In this document: positions 17,298 through 31,803 of the stretch, piece after piece
How positions within the stretch are numbered: position 1 is the first letter of the stretch
How the letters are laid out: every line of letters starts with the position of its first letter
IMG/VR virus record: IMGVR_UViG_3300005515_000665
Coordinates: 1-34,610 of that record
From: a virus
Strand: one strand, 5' to 3'
Length of the DNA: 34,610 nucleotides
Translations under genes and position numbers: made by a program
Notes under the pieces: generated by a model
Seen by the model: the letters and a program-made list of their open reading frames with translations, nothing else
What the model was told of the DNA's origin: nothing
Databases searched by the model: none

Positions 17298-18470
17298 TCA
17301 CGCGGTGACCGCGCGGGCGAACTGCATGAGGTAGCGGTCGGTGATGCGCTGGCGCAGCGTCAGGTTCTCCAGCGGCGGTACCGGCCCGTAGTCGTAGTCG
17401 ATGGCAAGCTGGCCGGCTTTCAGCGTGTCTTGGGTATTGACTTCCGGGTCGAACCAAGCCTCGCCGCCCAGCAGGTAGCCGTTGCGCTTGAGACCGCGCA
17501 TCTTGGCATTGATGCCTTCCAGGATGTCGCGCACCAGCGAAGGGTGCATCGGCAGATCCATCGCCCAGGCGTGGGCTTCGGCCATGGTGTCGGCCAGGAC
17601 TTGTGCCGTGCGGGTGTAGTTCTCGAAGGCGAAGAGCGGGTCCGCGCTGCAGGTGCGTGAGCCCCAGAAGCGGAAGCCCTGGAAATTGACGAGCGTGGTG
17701 ACTTCGTTCCGGTTCAGGTAGCCGGCATCGGTGGCCGGATCCTGCAGATCCCAGAACACGTCTTTCGACAGCCCGGTCACGCCGTTGACGGCCACGTTCG
17801 ACAGGGTCTTGTGCCAGCCCACCTCGTTGTCGAGCTTGGCCCGCAGGCCCAAGGCGCGGGCCGTGGCCCAGAGCGTGGATTCGGCGTTGCTGACCGTGTT
17901 CCACCCGACAAACTCCGGCCAGATCGTCATCAGCTCGCGCTGGCCGAAGTTGGAACGGTAGGCCACCGCTTCTTCCTTCGTTTCGCAGCCGAAGGCGGAC
18001 ACGTAGGCAAAGGCCCGCAGCTTCTGCGCGATGGCGGCCAACTCGGCGGCTATGGGCAGGCTGTCCAGGCCGGGAATGCCCAGGATGCGCGGCGTCACGC
18101 CCAGCGTGTTCTTCGCGGACAGCAGCGCCTTCATGCCGGTAAAGCGTCCGTTGGCGTCGGTGCCGCCGATCAGGTTGGTAGTGGTCTCCGCAACCGTTTC
18201 GCCCTCCGGCACGCGCACGACGACCGTCAGCGGATTCGCCTGGTCGGTGATGGCATCGAGCGTGTGGGCCAGCGTGCCCGTATCGCCGGCCTTGCCCAGG
18301 GAAGCCATGGGGTTGGTCAGCAGGACGGGCCGGTTCATTGGAAAGACCGCCGCATCGGCGTCGTCGGCGGTGCAGACGATGCCAGGCACGGCGGTCTCGA
18401 TAGTGCGGATAGGGCGGGTGCCTTCGTTGATTTCAACGACACGGACGCCGTGATGGTAGCCAGTTGGCAT
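17298..18470 (-). CDS. FI: Tail sheath protein FI
   Basis: This 390-aa contractile sheath protein is close in length to P2 FI. The N-terminus [18 protein letters not shown], the [12 protein letters not shown] strand and the C-terminal [15 protein letters not shown] are typical. The long open frame continues far upstream, but ATG 18470 is chosen because GGAGG lies 5 nt before it and because upstream residues are the shadow of DUF1353. It is the first gene of the FI-to-D operon. A TGTTGT-N13-ACAACA dyad is centred 95 bp upstream, so it probably has its own Ogr-dependent promoter, the counterpart of P2 PF. Confidence 0.95.
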
Positions 18471-18552
18471 GCAGTCCTCCGGGGTGGGCCAGGTGATGGC
18501 CGGGATCGTCCGGTAAGGATGCGGCGTACGCGCGAGGGTGTCGCGAAGAGGG

Positions 18553-18577
18553 TGTTGTGCCAGCATCTGAGACAACA
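18553..18577 (-). promoter_or_regulatory. Ogr-type late promoter dyad upstream of FI (PF counterpart)
   Basis: TGTTGT (18553-18558), a 13-nt spacer, then ACAACA (18572-18577). The pairing extends to GGTGTTGT/ACAACACC. A transcription start about 55 bp leftward (near 18510) would give a 40-nt leader ending in the FI GGAGG site. A weak CATCCT at 18521-18516 sits at -10. It is identical in core to the sites at 23357 and 31736. Confidence 0.75.
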
Positions 18578-18598
18578 CCTGGTGGGGCATTGGGCGGG

Positions 18599-18955
18599 CT
18601 AGTAGGCTCCCCGTCCCCCGACCCGCACCGCCCAATACATCAGCCAGCGGACTGGCCGCGAAACGCCGAGTACTTCCATGGCTTCCCGAAACGTCCGATC
18701 CGCATACGCCTTGCTGCCAATCGCGTTGGCATACAGGTAGTCGTGGATGATCGCCGCCTTCGCCCACCGTCCATGCGGCGGGAACAGTGCCCAGAGCAGG
18801 CGCGGCACACTGGCCAGGTCGGTGATGGTGCCTGCGGGCACGCAGATCACGTCGGCGCTGGGGTAGTCGCCGACGTGGTATTCGAACGCCGCCAGCAGCT
18901 GCCAGCGGTAGTTGTCCAGCATGCGCAGGTCGGCAGGGCGGGTGAAGCTCGACAT
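18599..18955 (-). CDS. DUF1353-family protein
   Basis: This 118-aa protein has the DUF1353 hallmark [32 protein letters not shown] at residues about 45-76. It includes the conserved Asp, Ser-Val-Pro and His-Asp that have suggested a small hydrolase-like or structural role in phages; the function is not established. ATG 18955 is chosen over longer frames overlapping the tail fibre assembly gene. It is the last gene of the V-to-G operon, just before the FI promoter. P2 has no gene here, so this is an accessory inserted between G and FI. The C-terminus is basic and short. Confidence 0.85.
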
Positions 18956-18960
18956 GCCGG

Positions 18961-19572
18961 TCAGCGTTGCAGCCTGGACGCGGCGGCGTGTGCCGCTTCT
19001 GTCTGCGCGGTAAGGATGTCGGTGATCTCGGCTTCGTCCTTCGCGGCGCGGATGGCGGTGCGTGCGTCGTCGCGCAGACGCTCGGCCAGGCCGACGATCT
19101 TGGCGTACGCGGTGGCGTTGGCGAGGACCGAAGTCGCCCATGATCGCCTGGCCGCCGCGTCATTCAAGCCAGCCGCGGCGACAAACTGCTCGCCCGCAGC
19201 AGAAAGCTCGGAACCAGCCGTGATGGCGCCTGCCGTTTCAAGCTTCAGTGCCCACGTGTCCTTTTCGACCTGTGTGGGGTTGTCTACCATGGTTTGAACG
19301 GCTTCGGCATGGAAGGCGTCAACGCGCAGCAGAGCTTGTTTCTTTGCCTCTGCAAGCGATTGCGCCGCTAGTTCGTCATCGAGGACGTAGCTCTGTCCGT
19401 CCCACTGGCGCGCGCCATCGAAGGGAAGAGGCACGCCCCCGTCTGCGACAAAGTCCTGAAACTGCCGCCAGGTCTCGTTGAATTCATCCTGTGGCACCTG
19501 TACGCCGGCGGCGATGATGCCCGGCATCCGGACGCCGGCTACGGTTGGCATTTCCATGTAGATGTTCTGCAT
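18961..19572 (-). CDS. Tail fibre assembly / tail-associated protein (G position, DUF4376-like)
   Basis: This 203-aa protein sits in the position of P2 G, immediately after fibre H (1-nt gap; ATG 19572). An N-terminal segment ([20 protein letters not shown]) leads into [40 protein letters not shown], a helical region typical of tail proteins with a DUF4376-like domain. Ala-rich helices fill the rest. It probably acts as a chaperone or cap for the fibre encoded upstream. It is not closely similar to P2 G, so the two genes (H tip and G) were probably exchanged together. The start could also be a Met a few codons later. Confidence 0.8.
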
Positions 19573-19573
19573 G

Positions 19574-20731
19574 TCAGAGTACCTTGTTGCCATAAAACGC
19601 AAATGCGTTGTAGTTGCCGCCGCGAATGCGGACAGTGCCATGCCCGGACGGAATGCTGCCGTTGTTTTTCAGGACGAACCTCACGGTAGCCATTGCTGAA
19701 AAGACCCGCACAACGAACGGCGACTGGTTATAGGGCGAGGGATTGACCTGTGGCACGTTGGTGAAGCCGGATTCACCGATCCCTGCGTCAAATTGCGCGA
19801 AGCACGTGAGGTAGTAGGAGCCGTGGCTGTTCTCAATTTCGAAGCCGCAGTTGTAAGGCGCGATGACATAAACACCGCGCGCCAGCTGGATCTGAGGGGT
19901 ACGCAATTCGTTGGCGATCCCAACTTCCACTGTGACGCCGACAGCGGCGTAGGCCGCACGATCGCTGGGTAGCGTGGCATTCCAGCGCCATGGCGACCAG
20001 GCGCCATCGGCATTGCGCGTGCGCACGAACAGCTCGCCGCTTCTTGACTGGCATAGTTGGGACACCCACTGCGAGTCCTCACGCCAGACCTTCATGACAC
20101 CTGCGTCACTCGGCGCGTTTGGATTCGCGCTGGAGTAGAAGTACTCGCCGGGCGTCACCAGCGCGTTGAGGTCGCCCGCCGCCGCATTGGTCACGGCTAG
20201 ATCCGCGCCCACACCTGCGGCCGTGCCCAGGACGGCGGGAAGGCTGGCGGCAGTGCATGCGCCAAATCGGTTGTCGACGTACTCGCGCGTGGCCAGCACG
20301 GCAGAAGCGTCGATCTTCAGCTCGACTTTGACTTGACCAGTGACCAGGACGACCAGTCGGATCACCTGCGTGCGGCCGGACCCTTCCGCCAGGCGCGGCT
20401 TGTACGTCTCCGGCAGGTTGCTGTAGTAGCAGAGCATGCCATCTTCGTCGTAGAGGCCGGCTTCGCGCATCCACCATCCTCCGACTTCGGCAGGGATCAC
20501 CTGCTCGGCGATGTACTGGCCGGGGTTGTCCGGATCGGGCGACAGCATGTTCAGCGGTGCGCGGCGTTTTTCGTTGACCAAGGCGGAGCGCTGGCGGCTA
20601 GGCTCGGGCAAGGCACCGTTGCCATCGCCCACGGCCATGTGGGTCAGCCTAAATGGCTTGCCGAGTGCCTGGGCATTGGCGATGCGGGCTTCGCCGGCCG
20701 CAGTGGGCATCAGGAAATATCGTTGGGTCAT
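19574..20731 (-). CDS. H: Short tail fibre protein H
   Basis: This 385-aa protein is much shorter than P2 H (669 aa). The N-terminal part (MTQRYFLMPTAAGEARIANA, then FRLTHMAVGDGNG and GGWWMREAGLYD) is the conserved baseplate-attachment domain (DUF3751-type collar fibre). A pyocin-knob-like segment lies at about 185-250 (LNALVTPGEYFYSS, SQLCQSRSGELFVRTRNADGAWSPWR). The last 130 residues are beta-rich and do not match any fibre tip I know; they would form the receptor-binding tip. It overlaps I by 4 nt. Host range is probably set by the C-terminal third. Confidence 0.9.
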   Translation of the reverse strand: MTQRYFLMPTAAGEARIANAQALGKPFRLTHMAVGDGNGALPEPSRQRSALVNEKRRAPLNMLSPDPDNPGQYIAEQVIPAEVGGWWMREAGLYDEDGMLCYYSNLPETYKPRLAEGSGRTQVIRLVVLVTGQVKVELKIDASAVLATREYVDNRFGACTAASLPAVLGTAAGVGADLAVTNAAAGDLNALVTPGEYFYSSANPNAPSDAGVMKVWREDSQWVSQLCQSRSGELFVRTRNADGAWSPWRWNATLPSDRAAYAAVGVTVEVGIANELRTPQIQLARGVYVIAPYNCGFEIENSHGSYYLTCFAQFDAGIGESGFTNVPQVNPSPYNQSPFVVRVFSAMATVRFVLKNNGSIPSGHGTVRIRGGNYNAFAFYGNKVL

Positions 20732-21432
20732 AGCGACAGTTGGGTGACGGTGACGGTATCGGTAACGTGGAATGCTGCTCCCTGCGCCAGGCGCCCCGAC
20801 ACCTCGACGGGGCTGGTGGGGCCAGGGTGTACGGTGAGGGTGTCGATGACGTGAAACGCGCCGCCATGACGCAGGCCCCCACGGACTTCGACAGCGTGGG
20901 AGAGATTTGGATGGACGGTGATGATGTCGCCCAGGATTGGGGCGCCGCCAATCCGAAGGTGCCCACGCGTCTCCAGTTGCATGGTCAGCGCCGTGAGGTG
21001 CCGCGCCAGCGGCTTGGCATCATCAATGAGCCGAGCGATTTCCTCGTGAAGGTCTTCGGCCACGCCACGTTCACCGACTTCGACCTGTATGGCGAACGTG
21101 CCGCGACGGCCCACTGGATCCATCTCGTACCAGGGCACCAGCCGCACCCGGTAGCCAAGCGGCTCGATGGCGCGGCGGATGGCGCCGACCGTGCCCTTGC
21201 GTTGATGCACCAGGAACGCGGCGTCGATCACGGCGCGCTTGGTGGCTTCGGGCCAGTCGGGATCCCATCGGTCTACGGAGCGTTCCCAGGCGAGGAACGG
21301 CAGGACGGCGGTGGGGCAGGTGGCCGAGTCGCCAATATCCCGAATTGGGATCGGAATCTCCGCGATGGCCGCGCCCGCCGCAGCCAGGTTGCGCTCCAGC
21401 GGCGTGGCGTTGGGTGGCAACAGGCTACTCAC
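20728..21432 (-). CDS. I: Baseplate protein I with a repeated C-terminal extension
   Basis: This 234-aa gpI homologue is longer than P2 I (176 aa). Residues 1-160 are the family core (LLPPNATPLERNLAAA, FLAWERSVDRWDPDWPE, RKGTVGAIRRAIEPLGY). The extension holds two 28-residue repeats (169-196 and 197-224), each containing (I/T)VHP, VEV.G, and GAFHV followed by Asp-Thr/Ile. They may form a beta-ribbon that meets the fibre. The gene overlaps J by 8 nt and H by 4 nt. Function: baseplate wedge component connecting the fibre. Confidence 0.9.
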   Translation of the reverse strand: MSSLLPPNATPLERNLAAAGAAIAEIPIPIRDIGDSATCPTAVLPFLAWERSVDRWDPDWPEATKRAVIDAAFLVHQRKGTVGAIRRAIEPLGYRVRLVPWYEMDPVGRRGTFAIQVEVGERGVAEDLHEEIARLIDDAKPLARHLTALTMQLETRGHLRIGGAPILGDIITVHPNLSHAVEVRGGLRHGGAFHVIDTLTVHPGPTSPVEVSGRLAQGAAFHVTDTVTVTQLSL

Positions 21433-22339
21433 GCGCGCCCCCGTCCACGATGTTCACGGCCGTGCAGTAGCCGGCCTGGGTGTCGTCCAGCGCCACGTCG
21501 ACGTCCGGCAGACGGATCTCCACGCGCGATACGCCCTCGGCGAACAGGGCGTTGTTGATGGCAGATCGGTCGATGTCGCGGCCCAGGCGTCGGCTGGCTT
21601 TGCGATAGGCGTCGGCGCGCTTGCGCGACTCTGCCAGTACCAGTTCGCGTTCGGGGCCGTTGGTCTTGGTGTAGACCGTGGCGTCGATCTCGTAGCGCAC
21701 GATACGCGCGGACTGGACGGTCAGGCGGTCGGCCATCGGGCGGACGTCCTCGTCGCTCAGGGCTGTTTCTACGTTGTGGAGCAGGTCCTGGCCGACTGTG
21801 CCGTCTCCCTCGATGCCGAGCACGGTGATCACCACTTCGCATGGTTCCGGGCTGGTGGCGCTGACATCGGCAATGCGGCCATCGGCGCTGCGCGCATGGA
21901 ACTTGTATCCCTCGCGCGGTCCGGCGGTCGATAGACCTTCGAAGGCAAGTTGCGTGCGCTCGGTCAGGGAGTCGTCGTCTTCCATCACGGCGGCGGCGGG
22001 CGGCGTCGCGGCCGGGTTCGCCGGTGATACCACCAGGCGCCGGACGTTGTAGTTAGCCGCGATGTGTTCGAGATCCTTGCCTTCGGCGTAGGCCAGCATG
22101 CGAGCCCGCGCCGCGTCGTTGATGCGCTGGCGCAGCACGATTTCGAGGTAGGCGTTTTCCTGCAGCAGCTTCAGGGCCGGCTCGGATTCCAGCTGGAGCG
22201 CCTTGGCCACGGCGGCGCGCTGTTCGGGCGGGTGCAGGTCGATGTACCGCGCTCTACGCCTGGCGAGGATGGTTTCGAAGTCGAGCGTTTCGACCACGTC
22301 GGGCGCGGGCAGGCGGGACAGGTCAATCGGGGAGGTCAT
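21425..22339 (-). CDS. J: Baseplate assembly protein J
   Basis: This 304-aa P2 gpJ homologue (302 aa in P2) is part of the baseplate wedge. It shows the family start IDLSRLPAPDVVETLDFETI and RARYIDLHPPEQRAAVAKALQLESEPALKLLQENAY. The middle AYAEGKDLEHIAANYNVRRLV segment and the C-terminal NALFAEGVSRVEIRLPDVDV follow. ATG 22339 overlaps the stop of W by 4 nt; longer frames upstream are shadows. No oddities. Confidence 0.94.
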   Translation of the reverse strand: MTSPIDLSRLPAPDVVETLDFETILARRRARYIDLHPPEQRAAVAKALQLESEPALKLLQENAYLEIVLRQRINDAARARMLAYAEGKDLEHIAANYNVRRLVVSPANPAATPPAAAVMEDDDSLTERTQLAFEGLSTAGPREGYKFHARSADGRIADVSATSPEPCEVVITVLGIEGDGTVGQDLLHNVETALSDEDVRPMADRLTVQSARIVRYEIDATVYTKTNGPERELVLAESRKRADAYRKASRRLGRDIDRSAINNALFAEGVSRVEIRLPDVDVALDDTQAGYCTAVNIVDGGARE

Positions 22340-22698
22340 CGCTTGGCCTCTCGTACAGGGATGGAGAGCCTGCCCATGGCGCTGGCCCGCGCGCCGTCGA
22401 TGCGATCCGCATCCAGGTCGACCACCATGCCGCCTGCGGCGTCCACGGAGAACCAGGCCGCGTTGACCTGTACCCGTGGCTCCCACTGGACGATGGCGGC
22501 CACGGACGCCGACATGACGCGCAGCCGCGTAATGTCGTTCAGCGGCTGATCGATCAGCATCGGCACGTCCGAGCCGTACCGGCGCCGCATGAGGCGCGTG
22601 CCGACAGGGGTGGTGAGGATATCGCGGATTGATTGCTGGATGTGGTCCAGATCCGCGATGGGGCCACCAGTGGCGCTGTTCAGGCCCTGGTATGTCAT
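22336..22698 (-). CDS. W: Baseplate assembly protein W (gp25-like)
   Basis: This 120-aa P2 gpW homologue carries the gp25/lysozyme-like fold used as a baseplate wedge component. Features: DLDHIQQSIRDILTTPVGTRLMRRRYGSDVPMLIDQPLND, including the central Glu/Arg-rich turn and the DQPLN motif. It starts with ATG 22698 and overlaps both V and J by 4 nt, in the V-W-J order typical of P2. Confidence 0.94.
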   Translation of the reverse strand: MTYQGLNSATGGPIADLDHIQQSIRDILTTPVGTRLMRRRYGSDVPMLIDQPLNDITRLRVMSASVAAIVQWEPRVQVNAAWFSVDAAGGMVVDLDADRIDGARASAMGRLSIPVREAKR

Positions 22699-23312
22699 TG
22701 CGGACCTCCCGTGCGATCCCCGCCACGCCGCACGCCGCCGTGGTCGTGCTTGTGGACGACAACGCCGTTGGAGGACAGATCCCCACCCGAATGGGTGATA
22801 TCGCCCTGAATGGCGTTGCCGTTGGCGCCGGCCTGGCCGGAGATGCCGTTTTGGTAGGAGAGCAGGCCGGTAACGGTGACGTCGCCTTCGAAGGTGGTGT
22901 TGGGGGATTTCACCAGGACGCTGGTGGCGGCTTCAATCGTGACCCGCTGGACGCCGATAAGCGTTAAGACGCCGGATGTGTGGTTGTAGCGCGTCGTCGC
23001 ACCATCCGGATACAGCGTCACCGTTTCGTCGGGGCTGTGGCTGGGCGTGTCGTTGGTGTCGCACGGGATGCCGCAGAGGACGATGCCGTTGCGGAGGTCG
23101 CCGCTGGGGCAGAGCATGAGGACCTGTTCGCCGATGGTCGGCGGGTTCCAGGTGCGGGTGGAGCCGGCGCGGCGTTCGAGCCAGGGGAGCCAGTCGGTGG
23201 TCAGGCCGCCGGCTTGGACGCGGACGCGGGGTGGGGTGGTGTGCTGCAGCTCGGTGATGGTGCCGAGGCGCAGGAGGTTTTCGAGTAGGCGGAGGAGGCT
23301 GACGGAAGACAT
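22695..23312 (-). CDS. V: Baseplate spike protein V
   Basis: This 205-aa P2 gpV homologue is the membrane-piercing spike. The N-terminal OB domain shows ITELQHTTPPRVRVQAGGLTTDWLPWLERRAG, the conserved WNPPTIGEQVLML, and an intermediate DGATTRYNHTSG turn. The C-terminal beta-helix ends in GDITHSGGDLSSNGVVVHKHDHGG, the HxHxH iron-binding type tip. ATG 23312 is first in the V-to-DUF1353 operon. The dyad at 23357-23381 is centred 57 bp upstream, leaving almost no leader if transcription starts at the P2-like distance. Confidence 0.95.
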   Translation of the reverse strand: MSSVSLLRLLENLLRLGTITELQHTTPPRVRVQAGGLTTDWLPWLERRAGSTRTWNPPTIGEQVLMLCPSGDLRNGIVLCGIPCDTNDTPSHSPDETVTLYPDGATTRYNHTSGVLTLIGVQRVTIEAATSVLVKSPNTTFEGDVTVTGLLSYQNGISGQAGANGNAIQGDITHSGGDLSSNGVVVHKHDHGGVRRGGDRTGGPQ

Positions 23313-23356
23313 GACCGCCAGCGTGCCTCAGGCGCGCGGGGCTAGCATTGGTTGCG

Positions 23357-23381
23357 TGTTGTATGACGGAGCAAGACAACA
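23357..23381. promoter_or_regulatory. Ogr-type late promoter dyad between V and the HNH gene (PV counterpart)
   Basis: TGTTGT (23357-23362), a 13-nt spacer, then ACAACA (23376-23381), core-identical to the sites at 18553 and 31736. The dyad is symmetric, so it could serve V leftward (ATG 57 bp from centre) or the HNH gene rightward (ATG 77 bp from centre). The V operon would otherwise lack a visible late promoter, which favours V. Confidence 0.75.
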
Positions 23382-23445
23382 AAGATGGGCGATAGAATGC
23401 GTCCTCAGAATAAATGCACTCGCAGATCCCCGAGGAGGTGACCAC

Positions 23446-24435
23446 ATGGCGAAAATGGATAGAGCAACGGACGAGCGGTTTACCGCCTTTTTGCGTGAGA
23501 AGGCAGCTGAAATCAAAAGAGATACTGGTTATCCGCCCAACCAGTTCATCAAGATGCTGAACGCCGATGGCGGCTACGCCACGGCGTGTAAGTTGCTGGC
23601 AGGAAAGTACCCTTCAGATGGCTTTGTCGAGCTTTCCAATAAGCACCGGCTGGATCTGAGTGTCGAAGCACTGGTGCTGGAAACTGAATGGATCGCCTAC
23701 TTCGATGAACTTCTGTTGAAGGAAGCAGAACGAAAGCTCAAGGGCGCATACAAATTCGTTCGTTACCAGCCTGTGGGAGACAACAATCGCTGGCCAGTCG
23801 ACGTGCTCGAAAAGGTAACTGCCGAACATTTGTTCGAGGCGGTCCGCCAGTTTAGGGAAGGTACCGCTCAACATGTGTTTGCACCTTCGACCGACTACGA
23901 CCTGCTTACCGAGGATGGTCGGAGGTTTCCCCCGAAGGCCGTTTTTGGGGTCGCTCTATCGATGGCCCTAGGCGGTGAAACTGTTGAACCGAAGCACTTT
24001 TCGGGGGGCGAGTCGTCCGCTTGTTTTCGCATTTTGCGTGAAGCAGGCTATGTCGTGGTCCCCAAGGATTCTGTCGAACCTTCTCAGCCAGAGACGGATC
24101 CGGACAAGGAATGGCACGAAGGAAAGCCTCGGCTAGTGTCGCATCTCAAGCGAGAGAGAGCAGCAGGGCTATCAAAAGCAAAGAAGGCCCAGTTTCGTCG
24201 ACTCCACGGAGCTTTGCGATGCGAGCGTTGTGGTTTCGATCCCGCGAAGCACTACGATGAGGAGCATGCCGAATCGTGTATCGAAGTGCATCACGCAGAA
24301 ACTCACGTTAGCAAGATGGAGAGCGGGCATGTGACAACTCTCGATGACGTGCAGTGCTTATGCGCAAATTGTCACCGCGTCGTCCATAGCGTCCTGCGCG
24401 CTGAAACCGTACGCGCAAAGCGGGTCGGCAACTGA
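23446..24435 (+). CDS. HNH endonuclease with ScoMcrA-like recognition module
   Basis: This 329-aa moron protein starts behind a strong GAGGAGG (23432-23438). Residues 10-95 form a helical domain (DTGYPPNQFIKML, PSDGFVEL, RLDLSVEALVLETEW) common in defence nucleases. Residues 148-205 (DYDLLTEDGRRFPPKAVFG, FSGGESSACFRILREAGYVVV) resemble the module before HNH in ScoMcrA-type modification-dependent enzymes, where it recognises phosphorothioated DNA. The C-terminus is an HNH zinc-finger nuclease with CxxC pairs C259/C262 and C306/C309, catalytic-type H282/H283, N308 and H314. GC is lower than in the flanking phage genes, and it is inserted opposite to the structural operons. A modification-dependent restriction role is inference; the HNH fold is clear. 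Confidence 0.88.
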   Translation: MAKMDRATDERFTAFLREKAAEIKRDTGYPPNQFIKMLNADGGYATACKLLAGKYPSDGFVELSNKHRLDLSVEALVLETEWIAYFDELLLKEAERKLKGAYKFVRYQPVGDNNRWPVDVLEKVTAEHLFEAVRQFREGTAQHVFAPSTDYDLLTEDGRRFPPKAVFGVALSMALGGETVEPKHFSGGESSACFRILREAGYVVVPKDSVEPSQPETDPDKEWHEGKPRLVSHLKRERAAGLSKAKKAQFRRLHGALRCERCGFDPAKHYDEEHAESCIEVHHAETHVSKMESGHVTTLDDVQCLCANCHRVVHSVLRAETVRAKRVGN

Positions 24436-24633
24436 GTATTTTTGGTGCTGCGACGTGGAGTGACGGGCGAAGTGGTGTCGGCATGCCATTCTTGCTGGGG
24501 GTATTGGCGGAGGATTTCAAATGCGAAGATTTACCGGTGGCAAGAAGCGGTACCGCACAGCGACGTGCTCTCATCCGCGCGAGAGCAATTGCTCTGGAAC
24601 TAGCAAATTGGACGTTCTTTCTAAGGATTCGGC
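24436..24633 (+). promoter_or_regulatory. Control region of three small genes, with a perfect palindrome at 24582-24595
   Basis: The 198-bp gap after the HNH gene holds a perfect 14-bp palindrome, agagcaattgctct (24582-24595), about 39 bp before the first small gene. An extra half-arm, gctctc at 24567-24572, can pair with gagagc at 24581-24586. This is a plausible operator for an autoregulated operon. An open frame at 24483-24698 overlaps the next gene out of frame and is not accepted. Confidence 0.5.
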
Positions 24634-24831
24634 GTGACATACATCTTGGCGACCACGGACGAAACGGTGCGGTGGTACAAGTTCAGATACAACGGTGACT
24701 TGGAACCGGGTCAGTTTGAGCTCTTGGACAAGCTGGAATTGAAGCAAGTCCCGCACTTTGCCGACAAGGAGACGGCCAAACTCGCGGCCCAAGCTCTCGG
24801 GCTGAAAACGTGGAGGTACGTGCGCATATGA
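24634..24831 (+). CDS. 65-aa protein of unknown function (first of three coupled small genes)
   Basis: This small protein starts at GTG 24634, preceded by AAGG about 8 nt upstream. Its composition looks real: beta-like start (TYILATTDETVRWYKFRYNGD), then a Leu/Glu/Lys helix (FELLDKLELKQV) and a final helix with DKETAKLAAQALGL. No catalytic motif or membrane segment is visible. The stop overlaps the next start (ATGA), so the two products are probably made together. No family is recognised. Confidence 0.7.
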   Translation: MTYILATTDETVRWYKFRYNGDLEPGQFELLDKLELKQVPHFADKETAKLAAQALGLKTWRYVRI

Positions 24832-25136
24832 GTAATCAGTTCTTCTTTATCGTGCTGCGGATCGAGAAGCTGGAAACCTCACTGTACGAGTGGGTGGCCG
24901 AGGCGGATTCGGGCGGGCCGCCTGCGCTGGATTCTGGCAATGGGACCAGCATCGAGGAATGTTTGCGAGATGCCGTTGGGATTCTCGGCGTGTCCCACGG
25001 AGTGGAACTCCGCTATGACGGATATTGCGCGGGTACGTTCGTCGGTGCCGAAGTGGCAGAGCGTCCCGCAGAGTTTGCCGCCAAGGCAGCTGCGGTCACG
25101 AAGTATTTCAAAGCAGTCCAGTTTGCTGCAGGCTGA
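24828..25136 (+). CDS. 102-aa protein of unknown function (second coupled small gene)
   Basis: ATG 24828 overlaps the previous stop by 4 nt; GGAGG lies at 24812-24816. The protein begins with a strand (FFFIVLRIEKLETSLYEWVAEADSGG), continues with a helix (SIEECLRDAVGILGV) and strand (VELRYDGYCAGTFVG), and ends in an Ala/Lys helix. It is acidic at the N-terminus, and there is no signal or membrane helix. A compact alpha/beta fold is likely. Its function is unknown. It is translationally coupled to the next gene (TGATGA). Confidence 0.72.
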   Translation: MSNQFFFIVLRIEKLETSLYEWVAEADSGGPPALDSGNGTSIEECLRDAVGILGVSHGVELRYDGYCAGTFVGAEVAERPAEFAAKAAAVTKYFKAVQFAAG

Positions 25137-25270
25137 TGATCAGCCCGAGTCTTCCACAACGTCTACAAACGGCTTTCGATCAGCGATCTCAGATGGGCCT
25201 GACTCAGCGTCACAAGGAAGCCATCAAGTATCTCGAATGGCACCGCAAGCTGCTATTCGCTTCTGAGTAA
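25136..25270 (+). CDS. 44-aa protein, third coupled small gene
   Basis: A very short ORF starts at ATG 25136, overlapping the previous stop by one base. It encodes 44 residues that are helical and basic at the end (RHKEAIKYLEWHRKLLF). A longer frame from 25025 covers the same end, but its extra N-terminus looks like shadow sequence. The overlap pattern and lack of bias argue for a real gene; its small size leaves doubt. It ends 26 bp before the end of S on the opposite strand. Confidence 0.5.
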   Translation: MISPSLPQRLQTAFDQRSQMGLTQRHKEAIKYLEWHRKLLFASE

Positions 25271-25295
25271 AGCGCAGGCACGATGATCATTCGCA

Positions 25296-25757
25296 TCAAA
25301 GGGTTTCGCGTGGCACGACATGGCTAAGTACCATGTCGGCCAACCGATCCACATCCCCCTCCGCGAACCCCAACAACTCCCGCCGCGCATACCTCACCTC
25401 AAGATTCCCCTTCCGATTCACCCGATCCCGCAACCCGTACTGGTGCACCGCCGCGATATTCCCGGCGTAGCCAGCAAACAACACCACCGCGCTGCCCGCA
25501 TCCGACTGGGCCTTCATCGTCCGGGCCATCCTCAGCCGGGCGAACATCGTACGGCGCAGCCGGCCTTGCTTCTTCCTGAGCTGCGGCTTGCGCGGTTCGT
25601 AGGCCGACCCATCGGGGTTACGCTGCGCCGCAATCCGTGCGGTCTGGCGCCGCCGCAGTTCGGTGACGACCGCCCGCATCAGCGCCCGCCGTTGCCGAGC
25701 GTCCAGCGTCTGCACAAGGGCGCCGGCCCAGGTGGTCAGTTCGTCCAGATCTTTCAT
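25296..25757 (-). CDS. S: Tail completion protein S (virion morphogenesis)
   Basis: This 153-aa P2 gpS homologue (phage virion morphogenesis family) is needed for tail completion. It contains the Arg-rich DARQRRALMRAVVTELRRRQTARIAAQRNPDGSAYEPRK segment typical of the family, then GRLRRTMFARLRMARTM and the AAVHQYGLRDRV motif. ATG 25757 overlaps the stop of R by 4 nt; an earlier Met at 25775 lies inside R and is less likely. It is the last gene of the O-to-S operon, convergent with the small-gene cluster. Confidence 0.93.
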   Translation of the reverse strand: MKDLDELTTWAGALVQTLDARQRRALMRAVVTELRRRQTARIAAQRNPDGSAYEPRKPQLRKKQGRLRRTMFARLRMARTMKAQSDAGSAVVLFAGYAGNIAAVHQYGLRDRVNRKGNLEVRYARRELLGFAEGDVDRLADMVLSHVVPRETL

Positions 25758-26194
25758 CGCGCGGGCAGCTTCCATCCGGACGGATCGTCGTATGGATCCA
25801 CCGGCTCGTCCGCGTGGGTGACCTCATACCTCCCGTCGGCCACCTTCACGATCACGCGCTCAGTCAGCGGCAGCTTCACCAGCAGATCCACGCAGTCGTG
25901 ATTCAACACGTCCGTTTCGAACTTGAAGCCATCCAGCCGTTTGTCGGGGTTCGTGAACAGCTCGGGCTGGTTCTCCCGCAGCCACGCCAGCACAGGCACG
26001 GTGATGGCGTCGGCACTGTCGGCGAAGTCGGTCACCAGCAGGCTAAGGGTGTACTGGTATTCGAAGGAGAGGGACTTCGCGCCGGTGGCCACCAGGCGGC
26101 CTTCCTCGACGAATAGGTGCAGCTTCTCGGGGTTGCGCTGCAGGTCGGGCACCGCCGCGGTGATGGCGGCTCGCAACTGGGCGGGTTTTTTCAT
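25754..26194 (-). CDS. R: Tail completion protein R
   Basis: This 146-aa P2 gpR homologue is involved in tail completion. Family features: MKKPAQLRAAITAAVPDLQRNPEKLHLFVEEG, then LSLLVTDFADSADAITVPVLAWLRENQPEL and FETDVLNHDCVDLLVKLPLTERVIV. It overlaps S by 4 nt, and its start overlaps the end of the displaced LysB C-terminal frame (stop 26191-26193). This confirms that the lysis frame just upstream normally runs to here. Confidence 0.93.
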   Translation of the reverse strand: MKKPAQLRAAITAAVPDLQRNPEKLHLFVEEGRLVATGAKSLSFEYQYTLSLLVTDFADSADAITVPVLAWLRENQPELFTNPDKRLDGFKFETDVLNHDCVDLLVKLPLTERVIVKVADGRYEVTHADEPVDPYDDPSGWKLPAR

Positions 26195-26448
26195 GGTGCC
26201 GGTTCCGCGATGATGGTGACGTCCTGGGCGCGCAGTGTGTCCTGGAGCGCTGTCAGTTGGGCGGCGTTGGCGTGGCCGGTGGTGTAGTTGGTGGCGACGG
26301 TTGCGGCGACGGCAGAGAGTGGAACGCCTGAGGGGGCCGCATCAGGATCTCCGGGATGCGGATCGAGCATTGCACCGGCTGCGGCGGCGTTGTGCAGGCG
26401 GACAAAGCCAGCAGGCACACCAGGCAGCATCAGCCTCGACGGTGACAT
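26191..26448 (-). pseudogene. Out-of-frame C-terminal part of LysB/Rz
   Basis: This frame contains the family-typical C-terminal text VPAGFVRLHNAAAAG and LSAVAATVATNYTTGHANAAQLTALQDTLRAQ. It ends at 26191, overlapping R by 4 nt as an intact gene would. It starts with an in-frame ATG at 26448, but that ATG lies inside the first part and has no ribosome site. A +1 shift near 26420-26430 would fuse it to the first part; loss of one TG in TGTGTG-like sequence would explain it. Confidence 0.65.
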
Positions 26449-26698
26449 AGCGGGGTACCTCCTTGATGATGGTGTTGCCTTTGAGCCGGATGGTTTTGAC
26501 GCGGTCTACGTAACGGATGACTTCGACCACGCCGACGTCGGTGCTGTCGAGTTGGGCGCGCAGCGATGCGACCAGCGTCTCGGCGGCAGTGGCGCGCTGC
26601 TGGGCGGCGCGGTACTGGCTGGTGAGCCACGCGCCAGCGCCAGCGATGCCGAGGACGGCCAACAGCGCGGCCAGGGCGATGTACAGGGTGCGGTTCAT
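26342..26698 (-). CDS. lysB: LysB/Rz-like inner-membrane spanin, frameshifted (N-terminal part)
   Basis: This 118-aa open frame overlaps the lysozyme stop by 4 nt. Residues 4-26 form an N-terminal membrane anchor (LYIALAALLAVLGIAGAGAWL), followed by a coiled-coil periplasmic stretch (QYRAAQQRATAAETLVASLRAQL) and VIRYVDRVKTIRLKG. This is typical of the P2-type Rz spanin. After EADAA (about 26420) the frame reads into WCACWLCPPAQRRR, unlike the family, while the expected VPAGFVRLHNAAAAG continues in another frame down to 26191. The gene therefore seems broken or frameshifted. No Rz1 lipoprotein with a lipobox was found in any frame here. Confidence 0.7.
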   Translation of the reverse strand: MNRTLYIALAALLAVLGIAGAGAWLTSQYRAAQQRATAAETLVASLRAQLDSTDVGVVEVIRYVDRVKTIRLKGNTIIKEVPRYVTVEADAAWCACWLCPPAQRRRSRCNARSASRRS

Positions 26699-27501
26699 GC
26701 GGCCTCCCGATCTTCGGCCTCGTAGCGTGCGTAGGCGCGCGCCAGCCTGACGTCGTATAGGTTGTCCTTGTACGCCGGGCCGTTGTAGCCGGCGGCGAAG
26801 GTGGCCCAGCGGCGGGCTTTCAGCGCCTTGTGGAGCGCCGGGTCGGCCAGCACGAAGCGCACGAAGGCATCGAGTTGGTCCGCTTCGCTTTGGCGCATGG
26901 CGTCGGCGAACGTCTCGACGCTGGCGTAGCCCAGGCGCTCCCAGTGGTAGCCCATGACCTGGAACATGCCCCAGCTGGCCGACGCCAGCGCGCAGGCCTG
27001 GTTGATTTCCGCCGCGCGGGTCAGGCGCATGTGCTCGGCCGCCTTGCCCATGTAGCCTCCGCGCTTCGGGTTGACGATGTTCGGGTACTGGCGGGCCAGC
27101 GCATCGGCATCGAGGCCGAGCGCGCGTACCTGCCGGTACATGATGTGGCGCTCGAACAGGATGACCGGGCGGCCGTCCGGCAGGAAGCCGGGGCCGGCGC
27201 TTTCCACTTCGTTCACGGCGCGGACACTGGCCAGCGGCACTTCGAGCTGGGCGGCCGCGCGGCGCAAGTCGTCGGCGCCAAGCTGGCCGGGCTGCCGGCC
27301 GTCCAACTGCAGGGCAATCAGCGTTTTGGGACCGGCCAGGCCGTCCACGACCAGGCCGTAGCGGGCTTGGGCGGCCAGGACGGCTGCGACCGTCGCCCCG
27401 TCGAATTCGGCGGTCAGTTCGATTTGTGCGCCACGCGTGCGCAGCAGGCGCTGCAACTCGCGCACATCGGCGCCGACGTTACCGCGTCGCAGGATCGTCA
27501 T
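26695..27501 (-). CDS. Endolysin: N-acetylmuramidase with peptidoglycan-binding domain
   Basis: This 268-aa lytic enzyme degrades the cell wall at lysis. Residues 1-65 form a peptidoglycan-binding domain of the PG_binding_1 type (ADVRELQRLLRTRG, DGLAGPKTLIAL). Residues about 80-265 form an N-acetylmuramidase domain (DUF3380 type) with VNEVESAG (catalytic Glu98 or Glu100) and the conserved LFERHIMYR and ASASWGMFQVMGYHWERLGY. There is no signal peptide, so release depends on the holins. ATG 27501 is chosen over the upstream frame, which is a shadow of the holin gene. It overlaps that gene by 23 nt. Confidence 0.92.
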   Translation of the reverse strand: MTILRRGNVGADVRELQRLLRTRGAQIELTAEFDGATVAAVLAAQARYGLVVDGLAGPKTLIALQLDGRQPGQLGADDLRRAAAQLEVPLASVRAVNEVESAGPGFLPDGRPVILFERHIMYRQVRALGLDADALARQYPNIVNPKRGGYMGKAAEHMRLTRAAEINQACALASASWGMFQVMGYHWERLGYASVETFADAMRQSEADQLDAFVRFVLADPALHKALKARRWATFAAGYNGPAYKDNLYDVRLARAYARYEAEDREAA

Positions 27502-27826
27502 GGCGGGATCTCCGGAGCAGGCGAAGCAGGAAGGAATCCCCATCGGCGGCGCGATCGAGCCCCGTGATGCGGAACAGTTCGACCACGTTGCCGCGCACGG
27601 CGTAGATGGCCAGGCATAGCACGGCGGTGATGCCGTTCTGAGCCAGCAGCGCCCATTCATAGCGACCGCAGAGTCCGCCGATGGCGCCGGTGCTGGTCAG
27701 CACGATCAGGCCATAGGCCAGGCGGGCTGCCCAGGGCCGGTGGACGCCACCGGCGCGGCGGAACAGCAGCAGCCGGACGGCGATCAACGCGCACAGCAGC
27801 GCCTGGAGGATGAACAGCAGCTTCAT
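27479..27826 (-). CDS. Three-TM holin (Phage_holin_3 / pfam05449-like)
   Basis: This 115-aa membrane protein has three hydrophobic helices at about 3-22, 33-55 and 62-80 (LLFILQALLCALIAVRLLLF, AARLAYGLIVLTSTGAIGGL, GITAVLCLAIYAV). It ends in a basic, Arg-rich tail. The pattern LLFRRAGGVHRP, then RGNVVELFRI, is typical of small phage holins in P2-type lysis cassettes. It overlaps the upstream holin-like gene by 4 nt (ATGA) and the lysozyme by 23 nt. With its neighbour it would permeabilise the inner membrane to release the endolysin. Confidence 0.85.
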   Translation of the reverse strand: MKLLFILQALLCALIAVRLLLFRRAGGVHRPWAARLAYGLIVLTSTGAIGGLCGRYEWALLAQNGITAVLCLAIYAVRGNVVELFRITGLDRAADGDSFLLRLLRRSRHDDPATR

Positions 27827-28212
27827 TTGCCACTCCTTTCATGGTGACCACGGATCAGGGACATCAGCCGGTCGCTGCGGTCGGCCAGCCGGATCAGCGC
27901 CAGCAGGAGCTTGACCAGGACGGCCGAGGCGACCAGGGCGCCGACGCCGTGGCTGACCTCGGTGTCGGACGGCAGCAGCCGCGCCAGCAGCGATGCGGCG
28001 AGCGGGGCGGTGAGCCAGCCCATGACGATCGACAGCAGCAGGAAGGCGACCTTCTTGCCGGTGGACAGCTCGTCCGAGTTCAGCGCGAAGACGGCGGCGC
28101 CAGCGAAGGCGCCCAGCACGGTGGCGGCGTCGACGCCTGGCAGCAGGGAGACGGCGCCGACGCCGGTTACCGCGAGGGCGGCGGTCGAGCTGGTGGAGAT
28201 GGGTTCAGCCAT
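27823..28212 (-). CDS. Putative second holin (pfam16931-like)
   Basis: This 129-aa membrane protein has AVTGVGAVSLLPGVDAATVLGAFAGAAVFALNSDELSTGKKVAFLLLSIVMGWLTAPL at residues 13-70 and a further hydrophobic segment at about 88-107, giving three to four helices. The spacing matches the small putative phage holin family of betaproteobacterial P2-like phages. It starts at ATG 28212 with AGGA about 7 nt upstream, inside the 3' end of X (46-bp overlap). The C-terminus is basic (HHERSGK). Confidence 0.85.
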   Translation of the reverse strand: MAEPISTSSTAALAVTGVGAVSLLPGVDAATVLGAFAGAAVFALNSDELSTGKKVAFLLLSIVMGWLTAPLAASLLARLLPSDTEVSHGVGALVASAVLVKLLLALIRLADRSDRLMSLIRGHHERSGK

Positions 28213-28442
28213 GTTGGTCCTTGCTTGGTCCTTGGTGTCAGTCCCACAGCTGGGACGCGCTTCACATCCGGCTGGGGTGGCAGGTCGGGCAGGTTCACGA
28301 CCGTGCCGTGGGGAAGGACCGGGCCGAGATCGGCCAGGCCCGGATTCGCTTCTAGGACCGCCTCGGTGATACCGGCGGTCTGGCCGTAGACGCGGTGGCA
28401 GATGGCGTCCACGGTGTCGCCCTGCATGGCGATGGCGCGCAT
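28167..28442 (-). CDS. X: Tail protein X (LysM-like)
   Basis: This 91-aa protein has an N-terminal 60-residue LysM-like core (MRAIAMQGDTVDAICHRVYGQTAGITEAVLEANPGLA, LPHGTVVNLPDLP) typical of P2 X, which is about 67 aa. The last 30 residues are Pro-rich and read through the start of the holin gene, so they may be a relaxed tail rather than a domain. ATG 28442 overlaps the L stop by 1 nt. Its role is tail assembly; the LysM fold suggests peptidoglycan or structural contact. Confidence 0.9.
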   Translation of the reverse strand: MRAIAMQGDTVDAICHRVYGQTAGITEAVLEANPGLADLGPVLPHGTVVNLPDLPPQPDVKRVPAVGLTPRTKQGPTWLNPSPPARPPPSR

Positions 28443-28909
28443 CAGATCAGGTCCACGGTGCTGCGCTGGCGCCCGACGATGTCGCTGACAGCCCAGCGGG
28501 CGTCGCGGCGCAGGTCTTCCACCGCCTGCATCAGCGCCTCGGCCTTGCGGTCGCCGGCAGCGGTAGCGTCATAGTCCCGATAGCGTTCGATCAGACCGGC
28601 GCGGGCCTCGCAGTACACCGCGCGCAGGTATCGGTGGACGTGGGCGGGCTTGCCGTCGATCTTGTCGGTCGGTACGGCTTCGAGCCTGGCGTGGCCGGCG
28701 GTCTGCCGGGCGACCCGCCATGACGCCAGGTCTTCGTTCACCGACAGGATGGCCTCGACGAGCGCCGCGCGCAGGCGCCCCGCGGTGACGGTGCCGTCCT
28801 GGCGCATCGCGGCCATGGCGACGCTGACATCGATGTCGGGGAAGAAGCCGTCGTTGGCGATGACGGTCTGTCCGGGTGGCGCTGGCGCTTTGGCGAGGAA
28901 CGAAGACAT
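28442..28909 (-). CDS. L: Head completion/stabilisation protein L
   Basis: This 155-aa P2 gpL homologue completes the DNA-filled head. Family text: NDGFFPDIDVSVAMAAMRQDGTVTAGRLRAALVEAILSVNEDL, then PAHVHRYLRAVYCEARAGLIERYRDYDATAAGDRKAEAL and the C-terminal ARWAVSDIVGR. It is separated from M by about 120 bp (28910-29029), where I see no gene, and is followed directly by X. Confidence 0.93.
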   Translation of the reverse strand: MSSFLAKAPAPPGQTVIANDGFFPDIDVSVAMAAMRQDGTVTAGRLRAALVEAILSVNEDLASWRVARQTAGHARLEAVPTDKIDGKPAHVHRYLRAVYCEARAGLIERYRDYDATAAGDRKAEALMQAVEDLRRDARWAVSDIVGRQRSTVDLI

Positions 28910-29029
28910 GGCTGGACCTGTTGGGGACAGTAGAGGCGATGGAGGCGGTGGACGGGGTGACTGTCGGTGCGGCGCGTGGCCTGGCCTTGGGCACCCCGTG
29001 CCGCCTGGTGCGCGGGGTCACGCTCGGGG

Positions 29030-29761
29030 TCAGCCGGATCCGTCGCCTGGCTTGTCTTCAGGCGGCGCGGCGGTGGCTGCGTTTCGGATCTCGCGCTCCA
29101 GGCGCTCGATGTCTTTCTTCACGCCTGACTTGTCGTGCAGCGTCAAGGCGCGTTGCAGATGAGCGAGGGCGGCCTGCCGGGCGCGCTGCTGCTGGTCGGC
29201 CGGCAGGGCGGGGATGCCGGTCAGGCTGCTGTAGCCGATGGCCTTGTGCAACTTCGCGCGCACCTCGTCGGGCATGTCTTCGCCTTCCACGAGTTGGGCG
29301 ATGTCGGCCAGTGCGTCGGTATCCACGGGATCGCCGGCCTCGGCAGCCTTGATGGCCATGGTGGCGTACTCCTCGGCGATCAGGCAGGCGGTGGTCCGCT
29401 GGTACTGGTCGGGCATGGCCAGGCGGTGGCGGATGGCGTGTCGCGCCAGCGGCAGGGCGCCAGTGAAGTCGCCCACGTCGATGTGCCAGACCATGACGGT
29501 CATGAAGACTTCGTCCTGGACGGCGGCGTCGGCGGCGATAACGCCTTCGATCCAGGCCTGGTACTCGGGCAGCATCGTGCGCTTGGCGTCGGCCTTGCGC
29601 TTGATGGACTGGATCAGCTTCAGGGCGCGCTTGTGCTCGGCAAGCTGAGCCAGCATCAGCTCGTAGCCGGTGGCGTGGCGGAGCGGGTTGTCCGCTTCGG
29701 CATCAGCTGCGGAGCGTGCAGCGGCCATGCGGAGGAAGTGGCTGCGGGCAGGGCTGGTCAT
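29030..29761 (-). CDS. M: Terminase small subunit / endonuclease M
   Basis: This 243-aa P2 gpM homologue (247 aa in P2) recognises cos and cleaves it with P. The family core is visible: TGYELMLAQLAEHKRALKLIQSIKRKADAKRTMLPEYQAWIEGVI, then DEVFMTVMVWHIDVGDFTGALPLARHAI. The C-terminus (QQQRARQAALAHLQRALTLHDKSGVKKDIERLEREIRN) is helical and charged. ATG 29761 overlaps the N stop by 4 nt. Longer upstream frames overlap the capsid gene and are not real. Confidence 0.93.
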   Translation of the reverse strand: MTSPARSHFLRMAAARSAADAEADNPLRHATGYELMLAQLAEHKRALKLIQSIKRKADAKRTMLPEYQAWIEGVIAADAAVQDEVFMTVMVWHIDVGDFTGALPLARHAIRHRLAMPDQYQRTTACLIAEEYATMAIKAAEAGDPVDTDALADIAQLVEGEDMPDEVRAKLHKAIGYSSLTGIPALPADQQQRARQAALAHLQRALTLHDKSGVKKDIERLEREIRNAATAAPPEDKPGDGSG

Positions 29762-30783
29762 ACGTCGACCACCTCGATGTTTTCGGCCATCGCCACGCAT
29801 TCGAAGTCCTCGACCACGTAGGCGTCGTTGCTCGATTCGTAGTTCTCGATGCGGTCGCGTTTGGCGTTGTCGACGATGGTGCGGCGGCGGCTGCCCTCCT
29901 GCCAGTAGATCGACAGGTTGTCCAGGCGGGTCACGAGCAGGGCGTCCGGCGGGAAATACGGCACGCGGATGGCGGGCAGGTTGCCGATGCGCTTCTGGCT
30001 CATGATGATGTCTGTGGCCAGCTTTTCGGTCGGTTCCCGGTCGCGGTTGACTAGCGGGAAATACTTGTCGGCCAGCAGCTTGCGGCCACAGATGACTACT
30101 AGGTCCGGATCTTCGGCGTACCACGGCGCGATCAGGTTGTTGCACAGGTCGAAGACCAGGGCGTCGAGGCTGGCGTAGTCGCGGCCCGGTTCGCCATCGA
30201 AGCCGCCTACGACGATCTTGTCGGCCGCCTTGGCGCCGGTCATGACGCGCTCCTTTGCTTCCTTGCGCAGGTGTTCCAGCCAGCCCGTGTTCACGTCCTG
30301 CAGCATCGGATTCGCCTTGCGGTCGGACGTGGCAGCGCGGCCAATGCCGTGGAAGCCGATCATGATGCGGTCCAGTGCCTGGCGGCGCAGGATGGCGTCG
30401 CGCAGGCGCGTCTGGAAGTCTGGAAACTTGGCCCAGGTGTCCAGGCGCTGGTAGGTGATGTGCGTGTCGGAGTCGGTCTTCTCGCAGCGGTACTTGCGAT
30501 TGTCGAGCGCGGCCAGATCGGTGGTCTGGCGTTCCTTCTTCGACGTATCCGTGGTGCTGGCCACGGGGCCGGATACGCCCAGGCCGACCTTCTCGCCCTC
30601 CAGCTCGGGCACGCCAATGATGTTGATCCGCGAAAGGAATTCGCTCGATTCCTGCACGCGGGTTTCCAGCTTCTGCTGGATGGTGGGCGCGACGCTGAAC
30701 TTGCGGTCGACGCGGTCCACGTCGTTCAGTTCTGCGATGCGTTGTTCGTAGGCCGTGTACAGGCGGCGGGTGTCGTTGCGCAT
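29758..30783 (-). CDS. N: Major capsid protein N
   Basis: This 341-aa P2 gpN homologue (357 aa in P2) forms the T=7 head, normally processed by O. The start ATG 30783 has GGAG about 8 nt upstream. Family features: TRRLYTAYEQRIAELNDVD, KFSVAPTIQQKLETRVQESSEFLSRIN and MIGFHGIGRAATSDRKANPMLQDVNTGWLEHLRKEAKERV, plus the C-terminal strand segment SNDAYVVEDFECVAMAENIEVV. It is 31 bp after O. Confidence 0.95.
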   Translation of the reverse strand: MRNDTRRLYTAYEQRIAELNDVDRVDRKFSVAPTIQQKLETRVQESSEFLSRINIIGVPELEGEKVGLGVSGPVASTTDTSKKERQTTDLAALDNRKYRCEKTDSDTHITYQRLDTWAKFPDFQTRLRDAILRRQALDRIMIGFHGIGRAATSDRKANPMLQDVNTGWLEHLRKEAKERVMTGAKAADKIVVGGFDGEPGRDYASLDALVFDLCNNLIAPWYAEDPDLVVICGRKLLADKYFPLVNRDREPTEKLATDIIMSQKRIGNLPAIRVPYFPPDALLVTRLDNLSIYWQEGSRRRTIVDNAKRDRIENYESSNDAYVVEDFECVAMAENIEVVDV

Positions 30784-30814
30784 GGGATGGGCTCCGGAGG
30801 AATGGGGTGTCGGG

Positions 30815-31666
30815 TCAGCAGTCGGTCGAGGCGGCGGTGCTGCCGTTGCCCCCTGTGGCCGGTGGGCGGCGGCTGTACGACTCGGTCGAATCGAGCGCGG
30901 TTTTCAAGGTGGAGAACTCGGCCTTGTCTTTTTGCTGCTCGGACTGGATCGTGTCGACGCGACTGGCGATGGATTCCAGCGCCTGGGTGACCTTCGTGAA
31001 GGTGCCGCCCATCGCGTGGATCTCGCGGGCCAGTTGCTCGACGGCCTCGCGTGTGTCCGCGTGCTGCGCCTGGCTGCCGGCTTCGGACTTGTCGACGCAG
31101 CCGAACAGGCGCTTGATGGATGCGGCCAGGCCGTTGGTGGGCTGGGCAGGTTCGCTCGGATCGTCGGCGGTGAAGTCGAGTTCGACTTCGACGGCTTCGG
31201 AGAACAGGTTGTTCGGATCCTGCTTACGGTCGGCCAGCGGATTGACCTTGGCCTTGGCGCTGAATTGCAGCATCTCGCAGCCCAGGCTGGCCGGATTGTC
31301 CGTGACGGCCAGACCGGTCAGGTAGGCCTCGCCGGTATCCGCAAAATCGGGGTTCACCTCCATCGAGCAGAAGATTTTCTGGCGAGCTTTGGTGAGCGAT
31401 ACCAGTTCGGGCGTGGGGTCGAGCTGCGCGAAGAGCCGCATCTTGCCGTCTTGTTCTTCGGCTTTCAGGGCCAGGACGTCGCCGTAGGCCTGGAACATGC
31501 CCTTGGGGTCGATGCCGCGAATGTGTTCGAGGTTGATGCGGGCGCCGTACGTCTGCGGCGTATAGCTGGCGGCCATCTGCAGGAGCATCTGGCGGTCGAT
31601 CACGCGGCCGTCGCTGGTGGCGCCTTCGGTGGCGATGCGGAAGAACTTGGGCTTGCTGCTGGCCAT
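30815..31666 (-). CDS. O: Capsid scaffolding protein and maturation protease O
   Basis: This 283-aa P2 gpO homologue is expected to scaffold head assembly and cleave itself and the capsid and portal proteins. The N-terminal serine-protease domain has the Asp-His-Ser set at about D19, H48 (INLEHIRG) and S101 (FCSMEV), in the order known for P2 O. The C-terminal part is a helical scaffold (TREAVEQLAREIHAMGGTFTKVTQALESIASRVDTIQSEQQKDK, about 205-250) and ends Ser/Thr-rich. It is divergent from P, sharing the 31667-31803 promoter region. Confidence 0.94.
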   Translation of the reverse strand: MASSKPKFFRIATEGATSDGRVIDRQMLLQMAASYTPQTYGARINLEHIRGIDPKGMFQAYGDVLALKAEEQDGKMRLFAQLDPTPELVSLTKARQKIFCSMEVNPDFADTGEAYLTGLAVTDNPASLGCEMLQFSAKAKVNPLADRKQDPNNLFSEAVEVELDFTADDPSEPAQPTNGLAASIKRLFGCVDKSEAGSQAQHADTREAVEQLAREIHAMGGTFTKVTQALESIASRVDTIQSEQQKDKAEFSTLKTALDSTESYSRRPPATGGNGSTAASTDC

Positions 31667-31735
31667 GGCTGTCTCGTCGGTGAATCAGTGGTGTTGCCAT
31701 GGTGAGCAGGCGGACTCGCGCGGGCAACGTCGCGG

Positions 31736-31760
31736 TGTTGTTGGCGCCGGGCAGACAACA
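31736..31760. promoter_or_regulatory. Ogr-type late promoter dyad between O and P
   Basis: TGTTGT (31736-31741), a 13-nt spacer, then ACAACA (31755-31760), core-identical to the sites at 18553 and 23357. The dyad is centred 56 bp before the P ATG and 82 bp before the O ATG (leftward). One symmetric dyad may serve both PO and PP. For O, a CACCAT at 31703-31698 fits a -10. For P, the predicted start lies almost on the ATG. Confidence 0.75.
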
Positions 31761-31803
31761 TCGTCCGCGTGGCACGCGTGCGCGCGAACGGTAGCGTTGC
31801 GGC

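Follow-up and report, generated by a model that had tools for sequence, protein, structure and literature searches.

How does a P2-like prophage of Ralstonia coordinate its late genes, and how far does that control extend beyond the structural operons? The window analysed here is the 34,610 nucleotides of virus record IMGVR_UViG_3300005515_000665 (positions 1–34,610), a P2-like Ralstonia prophage. A sequence-only reading had picked out a dyad, TGTTGT-N13-ACAACA, in exact copies before FI, before V and between O and P, where P2 has its PF, PV and PO/PP promoters, and a near-perfect copy upstream of com. The coordinates proved right, with no mismatches in the three exact copies and one in the fourth (Table 1), and PHROG matches confirmed the gene context of FI, V, O and P; family searches of the window also confirmed genes Q and D. 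That reading counted three late operon starts: the three exact dyads stand, but the O/P dyad serves two divergent operons, so that four late operons are involved, and the four dyads together serve five promoters (P, O, V, FI and com). A LysR-type regulator, an unusual cargo for a P2-like phage, is encoded downstream of tail gene D (10835–11869, minus strand).

Table 1. Dyads, predicted promoter elements, leader RNA and genes of the late regulon in the window
Feature	Positions	Strand	Details
O/P dyad	31736–31760		TGTTGT-TGGCGCCGGGCAG-ACAACA, exact; common to divergent promoters PO (−) and PP (+)
V dyad	23357–23381		TGTTGT-ATGACGGAGCAAG-ACAACA, exact; conserved in relatives with different spacers
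FI dyad	18553–18577		TGTTGT-GCCAGCATCTGAG-ACAACA, exact; conserved in relatives
com dyad	9589–9613	−	TGTTGT-AAGCGTGTGAGCA-ACTACA, one mismatch; exact in L023, L025, L028, L029 and L176–L178
PP −10	31792–31797	+	TAGCGT; fixed offset, +44 to +49 from dyad centre
PP start, predicted	31804	+	From offset +56; A of the P start codon
PO −10	31699–31704	−	CACCAT; predicted start 31692
PV −10	23320–23325	−	CACGCT; predicted start 23313, one base before the V ATG (23312)
PF −10	18516–18521	−	CATCCT; predicted start 18509; leader of about 39 nt with GGAGG before the FI ATG
com −10	9552–9557	−	GACAAT; predicted start 9545
Structured leader RNA before com	9407–9533	−	About 127 nt, conserved; covariance model 127 bits, E 8e-33 (model built from 25 sequences, the window among them)
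P, terminase large subunit	31804–33585	+	PHROG 3746
O, head scaffolding protein	30815–31666	−	PHROG 73
V, baseplate assembly protein	22695–23312	−	PHROG 9992
FI, tail sheath	17298–18470	−	PHROG 23; opens the F operon
com, Mu-like Com zinc-ribbon protein	9203–9400	−	Pfam PF10122 (Zn_ribbon_Com) 6e-15; start codon at 9400
N6/N4 DNA methyltransferase	8488–9249	−	Pfam PF01555 1e-30, PHROG 67; overlaps the com end
Ogr/Delta-like zinc-finger activator	5238–5486	−	82 aa, CX2CX22CX4C; Pfam PF04606 8e-15, PHROG 603

A pattern search allowing up to two mismatches returned five matches in the window, against a mean of 0.38 in shuffled sequence, and none of 100 shuffles reached five. The fifth match (7490–7514) lies within an ORF and has no promoter context. 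When TTGT-Nn-ACAA was counted for n from 8 to 23, four pairs were found at n=13 and at most one at any other spacing. As had been noticed from the letters, other TGTTGT hexamers are unpartnered: those at 10629, 13498 and 16900 have no second arm.

The same architecture recurs in related phages. The genome of Ralstonia sp. 25mfcol4.1, which encodes a tail sheath 100% identical to that of the window, contains all three exact dyads, spacers included. In about 20 IMG/VR relatives the sites are mostly exact TGTTGT-N13-ACAACA with unrelated spacers. The O/P dyad occupies the same place in all relatives in which the O/P region was read. Burkholderia phages KS5, AP3, Carl1 and Mana have mostly GGTTGT-N13-ACAACC at the same three places, and one or other form with N13 was found throughout the Ralstonia, Cupriavidus and Burkholderia P2-like phages examined. 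Alternative spacings (N11–N15 were counted) were rejected as a genuine motif, only N13 being enriched: good dyads (score up to 0.8) in relatives numbered 55 at N13 and three at N11, with N12, N14 and N15 yielding none, some contigs being represented by more than one locus. Taken across these sequences, the 6+6/N13 dyad is a trait of the clade and not a peculiarity of the window phage. The FI dyad is degraded to GGTTGT-N13-ACATCA in the close relatives L031–L033 and L083, so that degradation is tolerated there or the dyad is inessential. A sister group (L050, L054, L056, L058, L066 and L075) carries TGT-N14-ACAACG before FI, together with the CGCGCG tract described below, and perhaps represents a further spacing class.

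The sequence-only reading had stated that many copies outside late promoters would count against it; in the host this did not occur. Three complete host genomes (6.3–6.8 Mb) contained 11 exact copies, all in the late regions of P2-like prophages, against none for the backward control; these lay at O/P, V or FI, except that one Cupriavidus prophage has a copy ahead of an ORF that looks by eye like gene R. In locus L083 (Cupriavidus sp. D384) an extra exact dyad (1613–1637), with a phased −10 (CACGCT), precedes a tail-gene-R-like ORF as an internal late promoter, of a kind not seen in the window. Among 300 family genomes, 49 had a match. Single copies were about as frequent as control hits, whereas approximately 19 genomes had at least two copies and the control never exceeded one per genome; the multi-copy genomes that were examined had P2-like late-operon genes at the dyads. 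One lone dyad, TGTTGTACCATTCGGTCCGACAACA, is identical in G126, G141, G148, G155, G222, G234, G240, G264 and G289, and because it recurs in this way it is probably an unrelated conserved chromosomal site.

To define the promoter beyond the dyad, we collected 67 promoters from related phages and reduced them to 31 nonredundant examples (more than 20% different downstream). Information content approaches 2 bits per base in the dyad arms and stays below 0.5 in the spacer. Within the arms the inner positions hardly vary, while at the outer ends the left arm begins with T or G and the right arm ends mostly in A or C. An nAnnnT hexamer is phased to the dyad in 30 of the 31 promoters, its A at position +45 and its T at position +49 counted from the centre (shifted controls reached at most 10); in the one exception the CATCCT hexamer sits a single base further on. 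The A and T seen at these positions correspond to the two most important positions of a sigma70 −10 box. A TGAC-like −35 lies 17 bp upstream of the −10, its G kept in 28 of 31. Because the −10 phase fixes the start, transcription is predicted to begin at +56 from the dyad centre. All four window dyads have a −10 on the strand of the gene at the right phase, and these boxes are weak except that of com. The distance from dyad centre to initiation codon is 56 bp for P, 57 for V, 82 for O and 95 for FI. Decoy matches at 1744, 7490, 23761 and 27842 have no −10 at the right phase and were rejected as extra promoters.

The dyad itself is already known. The description of phage phiRSY1 in 2017 reported four late-promoter regions with TGTTGT-(X)13-ACAACA, an exact match to that of phiRSA1 (PMC5694545), for which the phiRSY1 paper cites Fujiwara 2008 as the source. 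The window phage is a new member of this type, sharing the identical motif, its place in the 5′ regions of four late operons and a zinc-finger Ogr homologue. The dyads of phiRSA1 and phiRSY1 lie 50–90 bp from the initiation codon; those of the window fall at comparable distances, with FI slightly beyond. The phiRSY1 paper reports seeing no sigma70-type promoter there (PMC5694545); relative to that description, our analysis adds the phased −10, the com dyad and the predicted leaderless messages of P and V.

The promoters also resemble those activated by Ogr and Delta in P2, 186 and P4, with the same operons, a weak −10 and divergent O and P sharing one site. The −10 phasing predicts a dyad position of −56 in the window, close to the value near −55 for P2/186/P4, and in the P2 record the activator sites lie 55–57 bp from the starts, and the transcript start of V is placed at its start codon. 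The window promoters differ in having a spacer of 13 bp and not 11–12 bp, full 6-bp arms on both sides, a GC-rich CGCGCG tract between −35 and −10, and the extra com promoter. The authors of the Smp131 report cite TGT-N12-ACA for P2, and P2's own sites in its record read TGTTGT-N12-CCA and TGTTGT-N11-ACAAA. Because these are less symmetric than the window dyads, Ogr contacts could be mapped only by analogy.

Does the longer motif define a separate specificity, with P2-type N12 sites unusable by this clade's Ogr and N13 sites unusable by that of P2? The sequence-only reading had proposed that the Ogr of this phage forms a distinct specificity class. The 13-bp spacer and the longer arms indeed set the motif apart from TGT-N12-ACA, but the class is not private to this phage, the same dyad being present in phiRSA1 and phiRSY1. 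The P2-type N12 spacing was not encountered, the spacer being 13 in every clade member while P2 sites have N11 or N12, and the window Ogr is merely some 32% identical to that of P2. In locus L061, where Ogr is 51% identical, N13 is kept but the arms are altered (TGTTTT-N13-AAAACA), suggesting that arms and Ogr co-vary. Against this, the P2 sites themselves vary between N11 and N12, so that a one-base change may be tolerated, and V sites of the form GGTTGT-N13-ACAACC occur in L077, L062 and L092 (one of them from Variovorax), where Ogr is 38% identical or was not found. We consider the odds of mutually exclusive specificities to be evenly balanced; that the N13 spacing reflects Ogr specificity is plausible. 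In phage KS14, for which the published description lists no Ogr, tblastn revealed an Ogr-like frame (NC_015273.1, 3596–3772, minus strand) with no annotated gene over it.

The fixed geometry has a consequence for translation. In each of the eight relatives in which the O/P region was read, transcription is predicted to begin at the A of the P start codon; for V, the predicted start falls 0–2 bases ahead of the start codon in 18 of 18, counting from the true ATG (starts derived from tblastn were off by 3–15 bases in some). A Shine–Dalgarno sequence precedes FI in 25 of 25 cases, P in none of eight and V in three of 18, these three being a distant GAGG. In phiRSA1-like prophages, which were taken from host genomes to represent the phiRSA1 type, P lies at +57 and V at +56, in agreement. 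As the start codons of P and V fall at the predicted start and lack a Shine–Dalgarno sequence, their messages are probably leaderless; this, like the exact starts, is a prediction.

The fourth dyad, which had merely been noted before, turned out to be a real and conserved site. Its −10 is at the exact phase, and in relatives the com −10 boxes at the right phase read GATAAT, CATCAT, GATCCT and GATGCT. Could the copy at 9589 nevertheless be a chance or decayed match, with the com–methylase pair read from another promoter? It has one mismatch and stands 201 bp from com, and no com dyad was found in KS5, AP3, Mana, L182, L184 or L185, all of which possess com. However, exact dyads with unrelated spacers occur at about the same place, approximately 280–285 bp before com, in L023, L025, L028 and L029 (distances 3 bp too long, as the com query began at codon 2), and approximately 267–273 bp before com in the phiRSA1-like prophages L176–L178, where com and the methylase occupy their other genomic position, just before FI. 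With GACAAT or GATAAT at the exact phase in addition, a chance match is very unlikely. The com promoter appears instead to be genuine but optional, given the six phages and loci that carry com without a dyad.

The assignment of all these sites to P2/Ogr-type late promoters is strongly supported by their position, −10 phasing, conservation, occurrence in prophages only and the CX2CX22CX4C pattern of the window Ogr. The sites, spacing, phasing, conservation, restriction to prophages and Ogr family were computed directly; from family and geometry we infer that Ogr binds, and it is highly likely that the dyads are the activator sites of late promoters read by the host RNA polymerase. That they are operators of some other phage or host regulator acting at the same promoters (a late repressor, or an Arc-like or HTH early-region protein) is very unlikely, for while perfect dyads resemble many repressor operators and the window encodes an Arc-like protein, a centre 56 bp ahead of the start matches the classical location of the P2 Ogr/Delta activator and is too distant from the −10 for simple repression, the geometry equals that of annotated P2 activator sites, and the dyad is present whenever a close Ogr is present.

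Our data are consistent with a model of Ogr-dependent activation in which an Ogr dimer, or two dimers, would bind the two TGTTGT half-sites and recruit polymerase to the weak −10, which is accompanied by only a rudimentary −35. The symmetric O/P dyad would fire in both directions and the others towards V, FI and com. The P and V messages would start no more than two bases from the start codon, those of FI and O would have short leaders, and that of com a structured leader of 145 nt. Together, these switches would turn on four structural gene blocks and a pair of DNA-methylation genes.

Conservation in the segment separating com from its predicted start site exceeds that of the promoter itself. 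A covariance model gathers 51 examples of this leader, which was noted in the window and in loci L148, L176–L178 and L188–L219. Of 28 pairs, 24 show two-sided compensatory changes, with 126 cells affected compared with 35 in shuffles (0 of 500). These counts lean towards this structure because the alignment was fitted to it; an unfitted MAFFT alignment already shows such changes in 11 pairs, and slid structures collapse in the covariation test. Folded as a single sequence, the window leader shows no unusual stability (z −0.9), so that the case rests on covariation. The leader is present in 29 of 300 family genomes and seven of 299 phylum genomes; nearly all of 27 more divergent leaders checked have com or a D12-type adenine methylase directly after them, and the leader also precedes D12 adenine methylases in phages that lack com. 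No Rfam 15 family reached its gathering threshold for the window leader, and nothing relevant was found for its relatives; the best candidate, DUF3085 RNA, was rejected (score 16.7 bits, cut-off 40.6, E 2.2). A partial literature search found no paper describing the RNA. An N-terminally extended Com was also rejected as an alternative to a leader RNA: in the window, read by eye, no open frame runs in line into com, although one does in L023, and the changes are compensatory for stems.

The 3′ hairpin of the leader (window, approximately 9435–9450) reads CCTCGCGAGG. Its apex is usually a perfect palindrome that differs among phages (TCGA, CGCG, GATC, CCGG, CTAG, TGCA or GTAC). The mean palindrome length is 9.5, against 4.3 in shuffles, a difference that is in part expected because shuffling ignores the stem. 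A varying apical palindrome suggests a loop that may pair with itself. We do not favour the palindrome as the target of the methylase, since the related methylases of L216, L217 and L219 have different palindromes.

The arrangement recalls the com–mom module of phage Mu under late activator C (PMC4461284). There too, Com precedes and overlaps a DNA-modification gene that the late activator of the phage turns on. It differs in that the predicted activator is of the Ogr type and not C, the modification gene encodes an N6/N4 methylase (PF01555) and not mom, and a structured leader precedes com. On balance we favour a reading in which the com dyad is the front of a mobile cassette, composed of an Ogr-dependent late promoter, an undescribed leader RNA usually bearing a palindromic loop, com and a methylase. 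In this view the leader would form a new cis-regulatory RNA family that governs DNA-methylation genes of phages.

Overall, the dyad was known; this analysis extends it with the phase of the −10, the prediction that P and V are leaderless, a com promoter and a leader RNA. The anatomy of the late promoters of beta-proteobacterial P2-like phages (arms, spacer, −10 phase and start) could be fixed from sequence alone, which allows late operons and accessory genes to be located by sequence scans. The contrast between N13 and the N12 of P2 makes the half-site spacing of Ogr directly testable. The com site shows a route by which an accessory methylase enters the late regulon, and it led to an apparently undescribed leader RNA before phage methylase genes.
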